From Methylocella silvestris (GTDB taxonomy: Bacteria > Pseudomonadota > Alphaproteobacteria > Rhizobiales > Beijerinckiaceae), in NCBI RefSeq assembly GCF_002891535.1, contig NZ_PDZR01000018.1:24978-88977 (forward strand): DNA of 64,000 nucleotides. The letters run 5' to 3'. The translations under genes and the position numbers were made by a program. Positions 22,032 through 25,804 of this stretch are shown piece by piece. The notes under the pieces are model-generated. The model saw only the letters and a list, made by a program, of their open reading frames with translations, was not told the origin of the DNA and made no database searches. The number at the start of each line of letters is the position of its first letter. Position 1 is the stretch's first letter.

Positions 22032-23519
22032 TCAGATGCCGAGCTTCGCTTTCAGCTCATCATTGACGGCTTGCGGATTGGCCTTGCCGCCGGTCTGCTT
22101 CATCACCTGGCCGACGAACCACCCGAGCATCGAGGGCTTGGCCTGCGCCTGCGCAACCTTGTCGGGATTAGCTTTGATGATGGCGTCGACCGCGGCCGCG
22201 ATTGCGCCCGTGTCGGTCACCTGCTGCAACCCACGCGCCGCGACGATGTCTTTTGGATCCGCGTCTTTCTCATCGCCAATGAGGATCGCAAGCACGTCCT
22301 TGGCGATCTTGCCCGATATGGTTGCATCAGCGATGAGATCGACAAGCGAGGCGATCTGGCCCGGCTTGATATGCGTCTGCGCAACCGACAAGCCGACAGA
22401 ATTTGCGTAGGCCGCAACATCGCCGGTCAGCCAGTTGGCGACGAGTTTTGGATCGCGCGTCGCTCCGCCATGGCGAACGGCGGCCTCATAATAATCGGCC
22501 GTCTCCTTGTCGGCGACGAGCACGCCGGCGTCGTAGGCGGGCAGACCATATTCGGTGATGAAACGCTCTTTCTTGGCGTCGGGCAGCTCCGGCAATCCGG
22601 CCTTCAGCGCATCGACATAGGCCTGATCGAATTCGAGCGGCAGCAGATCTGGATCGGGAAAATAGCGATAGTCATGCGCTTCTTCCTTGGAGCGCATCGA
22701 GCGCGTTTCGCCGCGGCCAGGATCGAACAGACGCGTCTCCTGCTGCACCACGCCGCCATCCTCGATGACGCCGATCTGGCGGCGGGCCTCGACCTCGATC
22801 GCCTGGCCGATGAAGCGGATCGAATTGACGTTCTTGATCTCGCAGCGCGTGCCGAGCGGTTCGCCCGGGCGGCGCACGGACACATTGACGTCGGCGCGCA
22901 AGGAGCCCTGCTCCATATTGCCGTCGCAGGAGCCGATATAGCGCAGGATCGTGCGCAGCTTGGTCACATAGGCGCGCGCCTCATCGGAGGAGCGCATGTC
23001 GGGCTTCGACACGATCTCCATCAGCGCGACGCCGGAGCGATTGAGATCGACAAGCGACTCCGTCGCGGACTGATCATGCAGCGATTTGCCGGCGTCCTGT
23101 TCGAGATGCAGGCGCTCGATGCCGACCTTGATCTGTTCGGTCGGCGAGACGTCGACGGCGACGATTCCCTCGCCGACGATCGGGCTCTTGTACTGCGAGA
23201 TCTGATAGCCCTGCGGCAGATCGGGATAGAAGTAATTCTTGCGGTCGAACACCGAGCGCAGATTGATCTGCGCTTCAAGGCCAAGGCCAGTGCGCACCGC
23301 CTGCGCCACGCATTCCTGATTGATGACCGGCAGCATGCCGGGCATGGCGGCGTCGACCAGCGAGACATGGGCGTTGGGCTCGCCGCCGAATTCGGTTGAG
23401 GCGCCGGAGAACAGTTTCGAGCGCGAGGTCACCTGGGCGTGGATCTCCATGCCGATGACGATTTCGAAATCGCCGGTCGCGCCCTTGATGAGTTTGGAAG
23501 GTTTCGCCTGCGTGGTCAT
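22032..23519 (-). CDS. gatB: Aspartyl/glutamyl-tRNA amidotransferase subunit B
   Basis: GatB binds misacylated Glu-tRNA(Gln) or Asp-tRNA(Asn) and activates it for amidation with ammonia channelled from GatA. The N-terminal cradle domain shows [20 protein letters not shown] and [15 protein letters not shown]; the Yqey-like C-terminal domain ends [17 protein letters not shown]. The start at 23519 ([10 protein letters not shown]) is favoured because its ATG overlaps the stop of the upstream DUF559 gene (ATGA). 495 aa is normal. It is separated from gatA by the DUF559 element, where gatA and gatB would normally be adjacent. Confidence 0.96.
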
Positions 23520-23938
23520 GCTGTTGCTTTCTGTCCGTGTTCGGCGTCGCCCCACCCGTCAGCTACGCTGACACCCTCCCAGTACCGGGGAGGGATCACC
23601 CGGCGTTCAATTGCACTCTGATAGATCGTCGCCGCCACCGCATCCAGATCTTCATTCACGTCGCTGTTCCAGAACCGGAGAACGAGAAATCCCACCGCGG
23701 CAAGTTGCGCATCACGCTCGGCGTCGCGTCGCAAATGATCTTGGTCGCCATGCTGCGCGCCATCAATCTCGATAACAAGCTTCGACTTGAGGCATGCGAA
23801 ATCGACGATAAAGCCTTCCCTCGGAACCTGCCTTCGAAAATGCAGGCCGGCTTCTTTCAACGCCCTGAGGCGGACCCAAAGTTTCACCTCCTGCGGCGTC
23901 ATCGTCTTGCGCAGGCGCCACGCAATTTCATTAGCCAC
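23516..23938 (-). CDS. DUF559 (VSR-like/PD-(D/E)XK) putative endonuclease inserted between gatA and gatB
   Basis: 140 aa. The core carries [20 protein letters not shown] then QH, with Asp46, Glu57, Asp59 and His63 as the putative nuclease metal and catalytic residues of the DUF559/VSR-like fold. [14 protein letters not shown] and the LRFWNSDV segment also fit DUF559. The start codon is GTG at 23938, and its ribosome site GGGGAGGG is supplied by the flanking repeat. The second repeat encodes residues 114-130 and gatA-gatB spacer DNA encodes the last ten. The stop overlaps the gatB ATG. Substrate and activity are unknown. It looks like the cargo of a repeat-bounded element rather than part of the amidotransferase. 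Confidence 0.88.
23549..23598. repeat. 50-bp double-hairpin inverted repeat, gatB side
   Basis: Begins GCCCCACCCGTCAGCTACGC. It contains two hairpins: GTCAGC/GCTGAC with loop of 3, and CCCTCCC/GGGAGGG with loop of 7. It is the inverse of the copy at 23939-23988, with 41 of 50 positions equal. It codes for DUF559 residues 114-130. Confidence 0.88.
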
Positions 23939-23988
23939 TTATCCCTCCCCTATCAGGGGAGGGTGTCGGCGAAGCCGACGGGTGGGGC
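23939..23988. repeat. 50-bp double-hairpin inverted repeat, gatA side
   Basis: Ends in GAAGCCGACGGGTGGGGC. It has the same two hairpins as its partner: GTCGGC/GCCGAC, and CCCTCCC/GGGAGGG around a different loop. It encodes the last 11 residues and the stop of GatA, and carries the GGAGG used by the DUF559 gene. Confidence 0.88.
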
Positions 23989-25464
23989 CCACCATTTCGG
24001 CGGCGGCGCGATCTTCGGCGCCGCCTTCTCGATGACGCTCGCGAGCGCGAACAAGGTCTCCTCGTCGAACGGGCGCCCGATCAGCTGCAGGCCCAGCGGC
24101 AGCCCTTCAGAGGACGTTCCAGCAGGCACCGCAAGGCCAGGTAAACCGGCCATGTTCACCGTCACGGTAAACACGTCGTTCAAATACATTTCGACCGGAT
24201 CGCCCGATCCTTTTTCGCCAAAGCCGAAGGCTGCGGACGGCGTCGCCGGCGTCAGGATCGCATCAACGCCATCGGCATAGGCGCGATCGAAATCCTGCTT
24301 GATCAGCGTGCGGATTTTTTGCGCCCGGACATAATAGGCGTCGTAATAGCCGGCCGAGAGCACATAGGCCCCGATCATGATCCGGCGCCGCACCTCTTTG
24401 CCAAAGCCCGCCGCGCGCGTTTCTTCATACATGCCGACGATGTCCTTGCCCGGAACGCGCAGCCCGTAGCGAACGCCGTCGTAGCGCGCGAGATTGGAGG
24501 AGGCTTCGGCCGGCGCGACGATGTAATAGGCGGGCAAGGCGTAGCGCGTATGCGGCAGCGAAATATCGACGATGGTGGCGCCGGCGTCCTTCAGCCATGC
24601 GACGCCCTGTTCCCACAGCGCATCGATTTCGGCCGGAACGCCCTGGATCCGGTATTCTTTCGGAATGCCGATCTTCATGCCTTTGACGCCGCGCGAGAGC
24701 GCCGCCTCATAGTCCGGAACGGGCGCGTCGACCGACGTCGTGTCCTTCGGATCATGCCCGGCCATCGAACGCATCAGGATTGCCGCGTCGCGCACCGTGC
24801 GGGCGATGGGGCCCGCCTGATCGAGCGAAGAAGCAAAGGCGACGATGCCCCAGCGCGAGCAACGCCCGTAGGTCGGTTTGATTCCAACCGTGCCGGTGAA
24901 GGCCGCAGGCTGGCGGATCGAGCCCCCAGTGTCCGTCGCCGTGGCGCCGAAGCAGAGCCGCGCGGCGACCGCGGCGGCCGAACCGCCCGACGAGCCGCCG
25001 GGGACGATCTTCGTATCCGATCCCTGGCGCCGCCAGGGCGAGACAACGGGACCGAAATAGGACGTCTCATTCGAAGAGCCCATCGCGAATTCATCGAGGT
25101 TGAGCTTGCCGAGCATCACCGCGCCGTCGCGCCATAAATTGGCGCTGACGGTCGACTCATAGGCCGGCTTGAACCCTTCGAGAATATGGCTCGCGGCGGT
25201 CGTCGCGACGCCCTCCGTGCAATAGAGATCCTTGACGCCGAGCGGCACGCCCTCAAGCGGACCGGCCTCGCCCCGCGCGATGCGCGCGTCCGACGCTTCG
25301 GCCATCGCCAACGCTTTTGCGGGCGTTTCGGTGATGAAGGCGTTGAGCGCGCGCGCCTGTTCGATTTCGGCGAGCTGCGCCTTGGCCAGCTCGACAGCGG
25401 AAAAATCTTTTCTCAACAGAGCGTCGCGCGCTTCGGCGAGGGTAAGGTCGGTGAGCGTTGTCAA
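23953..25464 (-). CDS. gatA: Aspartyl/glutamyl-tRNA amidotransferase subunit A
   Basis: GatA hydrolyses glutamine to ammonia for tRNA-dependent amidation. It shows the amidase signature [20 protein letters not shown] with the Ser-cisSer-Lys triad; the Lys is in [10 protein letters not shown]. The start appears to be TTG at 25464, giving 503 aa. The protein would naturally end at PKWW (residue 492, as I recall for this family). Here residues 493-503 ([11 protein letters not shown]) and the stop codon come from the flanking repeat, so this copy has an 11-residue foreign tail. It is cotranscribed with gatC upstream (53 bp) and DUF559-gatB downstream. Confidence 0.96.
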
Positions 25465-25516: not shown

Positions 25517-25804
25517 CTATTCGACGACTTTCGGCACCTTGAAAAAATGGTCCTCGCGCTCCGGCGCATTGGCCAGAATGACGTCGGCGATTTCGCCGTC
25601 GGTGACGATGTCCTGCCGCTTCTTCATCGGCATCGGCATGACGGATGTCATCGCCTCGACTCCCTCGACATCGACGCTCGCCAGTTCCTCGACGAAGCGC
25701 AAAATCGCATTCAGCTCTTCCTGCAGATGCGGCACGTCGTCGTCGCTGACCTTGATCCGCGCAAGATGGGCGATACGTCGCACTGTCGCCTGATCGACGG
25801 ACAT
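25517..25804 (-). CDS. gatC: Aspartyl/glutamyl-tRNA amidotransferase subunit C
   Basis: A 95-aa clamp that holds GatA and GatB together. The N-terminus [20 protein letters not shown] and the [20 protein letters not shown] segment are family-typical. AGGGA precedes the ATG. First gene of the gatCA-(DUF559)-B operon. Confidence 0.95.

Follow-up and report, generated by a model that had tools for sequence, protein, structure and literature searches.

The window, a stretch of 64,000 nucleotides from a contig of Methylocella silvestris, carries on its minus strand the genes gatC, gatA, DUF559 and gatB in this order, as assigned from open reading frames and Pfam matches (Table 1). The claim of the original prediction that a 140-aa DUF559 gene separates gatA from gatB was borne out by its reading frame, by a PF04480 match well above the curated cut-off of Pfam (E 1e-33; 115.9 vs 20.6 bits), and by the Pfam assignments of gatA, gatB and gatC. 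The TGA stop codon of this gene (23516-23518) overlaps the ATG of gatB (23517-23519), and the best protein match after its own product comes from Methylocapsa palsarum. Comparison with the same-genus genome G331 delimits an insert of 447 bp, consisting of the DUF559 gene between two inverted repeats, both of which reach into coding frames. The gatB-side (left) repeat lies within the 3′ end of the DUF559 frame, while the gatA-side (right) repeat lies partly within gatA, whose 3′ end runs into it, so that 14 protein letters replace the terminal KWWA and stop of G331 and GatA acquires a new C-terminus. The insert has a GC content of 59.5%, compared with 62-65% in gatB and gatA and 63.7% in the window. 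DUF559 is its only gene, and neither open reading frames nor Pfam revealed a known transposase or recombinase gene inside it.

Table 1. Positions of the genes, repeats and insert at the gatA-gatB junction of the window
Feature	Position	Strand	Basis
gatB, neighbour downstream of the insert	22032..23519	-	ORF and Pfam
DUF559 (EDxHD/Vsr-like nuclease) gene, 140 aa	23516..23938	-	ORF, GTG start, PF04480
Insert (absent from same-genus G331, which has 34 bp instead)	23540..23986	-	Flank alignments and junction read
Downstream (gatB-side) repeat, inverted copy	23549..23596	+	Inverted-arm alignment, folding, third-strand scan
Upstream (gatA-side) repeat	23941..23988	-	Inverted-arm alignment, folding, third-strand scan
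gatA	23953..25464	-	ORF, Pfam and comparison with G331
gatC	25517..25804	-	ORF and Pfam

The two arms are 48 nt long, 83% complementary and 344 nt apart, and each folds as single-stranded DNA into two hairpins (z -3.0 and -5.4). Structured inverted repeats had been predicted around the gene, and this part of the description stands; what it had missed is that they have the form of a known motif. Both arms contain a pyrimidine-purine hairpin with a mirror third strand, laid out as a CCCTCCC...GGGAGGG hairpin, a 16-nt loop with a hairpin of its own, and GGGTGGG(G) mirroring the 3′ stem. In the upstream repeat, the hairpin (23943-23963) is followed by the loop with its small hairpin (23964-23979) and by the third strand GGGTGGGG from 23980; in the downstream repeat, the hairpin occupies 23574-23594 and the third strand, GGGTGGG when read on the minus strand, 23557-23551. 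The pattern was found twice in the window against 0.03 occurrences expected from shuffles. By sequence, the window repeats thus have the form of the intrastrand-triplex repeats termed BoxC, PIT or TM, the triplex itself being predicted. Such repeats have been known since the 1990s. The E. coli BoxC pattern, with 9-nt stems and a 3-nt second loop, does not describe the window repeats, whose second loop has 16 nt and its own hairpin. The tag expected of REP sequences is GTAG or CGTC at the foot of the palindrome, and in the window repeat CGTC stands at the small hairpin; REPs of the CGTC kind without a known transposase have been described (Di Nocera et al. 2013; PMC3733652). The third strands of the window repeats face outward; among DUF559 loci both orientations occur, third strands facing the gene being the commoner.

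The DUF559 domain occupies residues 4-107 of the 140-aa protein, the rest being a disordered tail of low confidence in a structural model with a mean pLDDT of 82.6. Positions invariant among 38 homologs include T14, E17, D46, E57, D59, H63 and D72, of which E17, D46, H63 and D72 correspond, by eye, to the EDxHD residues. Among solved structures, the closest are 3hrl, from an endonuclease-like protein of Neisseria (40% identity), and 3r3p, which represents the catalytic domain of I-Bth0305I; these two alone fell below E 0.001 in a profile search of PDB sequences. In the structural ranking, 3r3p took places 2 and 3 and E. coli Vsr place 9. The invariant residues and the predicted fold therefore resemble those of the EDxHD homing endonuclease I-Bth0305I, and enzymes with this signature have been described as cutting DNA with a metal-bound water (PMC3943268). 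Likeness to I-Bth0305I extends to the fold of the catalytic domain, the sequence match and the E/D/H/D correspondence (by eye); however, the homing enzyme has a DNA-binding region beyond its catalytic domain, in place of which the window protein has its disordered tail, and the window gene lies not in an intron but between inverted repeats. A role as a defence nuclease was considered and rejected, as the window protein gave only partial PADLOC matches, the best being DpdF (1.2e-5, over residues 45-95), followed by PDC-S37, Hhe and a "homing endonuclease" model (1.5e-4 to 9e-4). YcjD, the E. coli DUF559 protein, had no PADLOC match at E <= 0.01.

A profile search of the whole genome that holds the window (4.28 Mb in 79 contigs) found a single DUF559 gene. 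With up to 3 mismatches allowed, the repeat pattern occurs twice genome-wide, as does the CCCTCCC/GGGAGGG hairpin, always at the gatA-gatB insert; one hairpin of the related TCTCCC class was also counted, its place not being listed. Neither spread of the repeats after arrival nor gene-less left-plus-right copies were seen in these pattern and hairpin scans of the genome. Unoccupied gatA-gatB junctions, which the original prediction had called for in relatives, were found in the same-genus genomes G331 and G364, both of which lack DUF559 as well as any CCCTCCC/GGGAGGG hairpin. In alignments with G331, the two flanks of the insert have 556 of 611 and 671 of 700 identical bases, and between them stand 34 bp in G331 vs 447 bp in the window. 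This is an insertion with local replacement, and the empty site does not match to the base. Comparison with the G331 junction, which differs by these 34 bp, shows no target duplication. The assumption that gatA and gatB are normally adjacent proved right in part: in relatives the gap between them is variable and often filled with other sequence. At loci L085, L088, L089, L090, L094, L097, L099, L107 and L108, it ranges from less than 100 bp to several hundred and differs in sequence by genus. The gap looks like a permissive site.

Repeats of this class accompany DUF559 genes far beyond the window. A total of 101 loci were assembled (19 from named genomes, 81 via genome profile searches, and the window), 11 of which lay at contig ends and were dropped. 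In the remaining 90, a hairpin with a pyrimidine 5′ arm was located within 200 bp of the gene on at least one side in 83 cases (69 with an upstream hairpin, 66 with a downstream one and 52 with both), compared with 1.9% upstream, 2.3% downstream and 0.38% on both sides for 4678 control placements in the same loci; control hairpins with a purine 5′ arm were found within 200 bp in none of the 90 loci. By locus set, the count of loci with a hairpin on one side or both was 18/19, 26/27, 16/21 and 22/22, plus the window. The expectation that the repeat would recur around other DUF559 genes is thereby upheld for repeats of the same class, which are also dispersed without the gene in many genomes. 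Of the seven loci without a hairpin by this rule, three match DUF559 weakly or in part, and two show strong inverted arms under an earlier inverted-arm score, which 31 of 47 loci passed. The hairpin test was adopted after that score because alignment scoring is ill suited to arms composed of repeat pairs and to short hairpins. A mirror third strand (no more than 40 nt away and with no more than one mismatch) accompanies 166 of the 181 hairpins, vs 17.5% of 3620 shuffled-flank controls, and at least one such hairpin is present in 79 of the 90 loci. The C-terminal tails of several DUF559 homologs look, by eye, like read-through into the repeat.

The specificity of these ends was assessed in genomes with several DUF559 genes, using 56 loci, of which 40 came from eight genomes (8/10, 7/7, 5/5, 5/5, 5/8, 3/8, 4/4 and 3/7 of the matches there) and 16 from five genomes. 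Repeats are present at 47 of them, on both sides at 37, and absent from nine; 36 loci in 11 genomes were testable. The two ends of one gene are more alike (0.87) than ends taken from different genes of a genome (0.63), a difference reached by none of 20,000 permutations. Each DUF559 gene thus has its own matched pair of repeats within a genome, which argues against chance capture of the gene between random repeat copies.

Repeat numbers follow the presence of DUF559 across genomes. In 297 genomes of the same order, hairpins of the form TCTCCCN{2,9}GGGAGA were counted and DUF559 matches at E <= 1e-20 (our own cut) were taken as strong; 23 genomes whose matches were weak (median 3 hairpins) were excluded from the tests. 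The 129 genomes with strong DUF559 have a median of 37 hairpins (105 with at least 10), compared with a median of 1 in the 145 genomes without DUF559 (12 with at least 10; Mann-Whitney p 2.5e-34; backward-read control p 0.52). Hairpins are more numerous with DUF559 in 19 of the 20 families having both kinds of genome, and none of 5000 within-family permutations reached the observed difference. The same relation was obtained in a phylum-wide set of 249 genomes, from which 30 of the same order were dropped and 24 with weak matches left out: the median is 26 in 39 genomes with strong DUF559 vs 1 in 156 genomes with none (15 with at least 10; p 3e-13; control p 0.36), with higher counts in 8 of 10 families. 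Exceptions with strong DUF559 and at most three hairpins amount to 12 of 129 genomes in the order and 8 of 39 in the phylum set. Co-occurrence of this kind gives by itself no direction of cause. Six repeat-rich genomes (35 to 120 hairpins) have no DUF559 match (G252, G005, G041, G490, G540 and G414), for which recent loss, assembly gaps or another mover are possible explanations. The highest count of the order set, 437 hairpins, belongs to G212, whose backward-read control is also unusually high (25).

Gene-less copies with both ends were encountered when the arms of the DUF559 locus of genome G235 were searched in nine congeners and two other genomes, originally for an empty site. At least 126 arm matches are listed (59 left, 67 right), and among them at least 41 pairs within 200 bp combine a left and a right arm on the same strand and in gene order, with a span of 108-177 bp; a further five pairs have the reverse order and five are of another kind, with 33 matches left unpaired. 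Among the matches listed, the gene-order pairs are distributed over five genomes of the G235 genus (G252, 15; G142, 13; G215, 11; G269, 1; G170, 1). In sequence, such pairs look like the expected product of an internal deletion that removes the gene. The genome profile search found no DUF559 match in G252 or G170, indicating that copies are maintained, or move, in genomes lacking the gene. Close pairs of hairpins are also present in G235 itself. At its locus, the second loop is long in the left arm and short in the right arm, recalling the type A and type B pairs of E. coli BoxC.

The E. coli gene ycjD, located in K-12 between sapF and fabI, is a DUF559 gene (E 1.4e-49), and BoxC-like repeats were found downstream of it in the two E. 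coli strains read. In 3363 of 5426 E. coli genomes, a single place covers 80% or more of a sapF-ycjD-fabI query. In a crude count among the matches listed, the number of repeat places changed little with ycjD, averaging 4.2 in 31 rows with the gene and 3.7 in 18 without. E. coli BCE-1, which has no ycjD by fabI, was rejected as a clean empty site, since the neighbours of fabI differ and the locus is rearranged rather than empty. The E. coli genome that served as a control in the profile searches gave no PF04480 match and may be a strain without ycjD.

Gene and repeats are associated, occur or are missing together, have ends that belong to the individual gene, and coexist with gene-less copies. 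The insert is best described as a DUF559 gene between inverted BoxC-type repeats, and the predicted nuclease probably moves the unit as well as the gene-less repeat copies. The proposal that nuclease and hairpins form one element is strengthened by the empty sites in two same-genus genomes and by the 83 of 90 DUF559 loci with the repeat. Recognition, cutting and copying by the DUF559 nuclease are what we infer: the EDxHD enzyme would recognise the folded repeat, as a hairpin or triplex, and would nick or cut DNA at the repeat or at a target, and host repair or replication would then fill the break with a copy of the unit, much as with a homing endonuclease or with RAYTs acting on REPs. Copies that lost the gene and kept both ends might be spread in trans, giving rise to BoxC pairs. 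No lone nuclease of the EDxHD fold is known to join DNA ends, so that host repair must be assumed. The further reading that this is a new class of transposable element, with a bare EDxHD/DUF559 nuclease acting on triplex-forming ends and no DDE, HUH, serine or tyrosine recombinase, with BoxC/PIT/TM repeats as its deletion copies and with an activity that destabilises those loci, is held with less assurance, the balance tilting slightly in its favour.

The most serious competitor holds that the repeats are mobile or recombinogenic by themselves, through triplex-induced breaks and homologous recombination, with DUF559 as a passenger between copies. Triplex repeats of E. coli have been linked to rearrangement without any gene being involved (PMC4666352), and repeat-rich genomes without DUF559, such as G252, do exist. 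However, repeat counts follow DUF559 within families, the ends are gene-specific within a genome and not random copies, and G331 and G364 offer no hairpin of this class for recombination. A passenger in 83 of 90 cases would be left unexplained, and self-mobile repeats are considered unlikely. Less probable still is a role of DUF559 in host repair, as a Vsr-like enzyme for mismatches or DNA structures that is kept near the repeats or acts at them for containment, and not as their mover. Vsr is indeed among the fold matches, E. coli Vsr sharing the fold of the window protein, and the DUF559 protein VsrA of Caulobacter has been proposed as a mismatch-repair nuclease, which drives a DNA damage response when cytosine methyltransferase is lacking (PMC12907096). 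By analogy, this damage response suggests that DUF559 proteins are active in vivo. The available text of that report discusses the mismatch-repair role and describes no repeats around the gene. Against a repair function, I-Bth0305I is a closer fold match than Vsr; the gene is patchily distributed (152 of the 297 genomes of the order with any match), reaches 10 copies per genome and is inserted inside operons; and gene-less left-plus-right copies are not predicted by such a role.

Movement of the unit by an unrelated transposase, for instance of the Y1/RAYT kind, with DUF559 as cargo, would fit a layout like that of REP-RAYT, but is very improbable: the numbers of hairpins are unrelated to the presence of Y1_Tnp, the transposase family covered (46 genomes with vs 251 without, among 297; p 0.15), also within DUF559 strata, and the genome that holds the window has no match to this family (PF01797). 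The resemblance to REP-RAYT with a different nuclease family, as originally suggested, holds for the layout. Both REP/REPIN-RAYT systems and the element described here comprise dispersed intergenic palindromes, often in inverted pairs, which flank a single-gene nuclease, and in both the gene-less pairs outnumber the gene-bearing copies. In contrast, the REP-RAYT enzyme is a Y1 HUH transposase, and that of the element is DUF559, of the EDxHD fold. By its enzyme the element would be a new class, with an architecture that parallels REP-RAYT; by analogy it may work like REP-RAYT or a homing gene, while being neither REP-RAYT by enzyme nor of the homing type by domain plan.

Long-standing membership of DUF559 in the gat operon, followed by loss in most relatives, with the repeats as incidental terminators or mRNA stabilisers, is hardly credible, even though G339, of another genus, also has DUF559 between gatA and gatB: only these two of 30 gat loci read carry the gene, the G339 insert has another boundary and an extra repeat pair, many homologs are closer to the window copy than that of G339 is in a weakly supported tree, and a pattern scan of the junction, which covered terminator and promoter roles, found no such site. 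Conserved gat membership and confinement of the repeat to this locus, either of which would have spoken against a mobile unit, are thus not what was found, as the repeat class also occurs elsewhere. The G339 protein is 77% identical to that of the window over 109 aa, and its insert starts approximately 20 bp past the gatA stop. The window and G339 copies are read, short of proof, as separate insertions. The same-genus genome G303 was rejected as an empty site for the G339 copy, other sequence being present there. Between the window and G339 genes, dN is 0.17 and dS 1.5 over about 111 codons, indicating that the DUF559 protein is under selection.

With the BoxC/PIT/TM repeats, the element has in common the hairpin with a mirror third strand, the inverted pairs, the intergenic location and the link to instability (PMC4666352). 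Holder et al. (2015) counted 3610 E. coli-type copies in 262 proteobacterial genomes and described inverted pairs of a type A and a type B copy with strong variability around them; they reported no mobility activity near BoxC repeats and called the mechanism of instability unclear, and the main text of their paper mentions neither DUF559 nor ycjD (PMC4666352). Loops of 1-6 nt were allowed in that survey, and the window form, with its structured second loop of 16 nt, would not have been counted (PMC4666352). A literature search, with subscription papers outside its reach, found no paper linking DUF559 or ycjD to BoxC. As in MITEs, gene-less left-plus-right copies resemble internal deletions of a gene-bearing unit, and terminal inverted repeats, a criterion for insertion sequences and MITEs, are present around the window gene and other DUF559 loci; unlike MITEs, the parent encodes none of the known transposase classes, and the junction comparison showed no target duplication. 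A similar look, with paired intergenic palindromes, characterises the Rhizobium intergenic mosaic elements (RIME).

The proposed role of DUF559 would provide one testable gene, ycjD in E. coli K-12, for the spread of BoxC repeats and for rearrangement at BoxC sites. A family of unknown function would gain a likely role, and a nuclease-only route of mobility would stand beside REP-RAYT. In addition, a DUF559 gene located within an operon may have been inserted there and need not be one of its members.

DUF559 matches were also found in 42 plasmid records, and the flanks were read in 13, two of which are E. coli chromosomes deposited as plasmids. With the arm rule slightly relaxed for seven of these loci, the motif is present on both sides of the gene in four (Pseudanabaena, two Deinococcus and Sphingomonas); the Azospirillum lipoferum locus has motifs upstream and a hairpin downstream, that of Synechocystis has one hairpin and no third strand, and that of Picosynechococcus has no motif by the automatic rule. 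At all four of the other non-E. coli loci, one or more hairpins lie close to the gene, in three cases on one side. On the cyanobacterial plasmids L236 and L238, the DUF559 genes have G/C-rich GGGGGCTAGGGGGC-type repeats next to them (by eye for L238). On a Sphingomonas plasmid (L241), DUF559 lies between genes for pntA-type transhydrogenase subunits, and on a Deinococcus plasmid (L239) between paaD and paaZ, in both cases with repeats on both sides.
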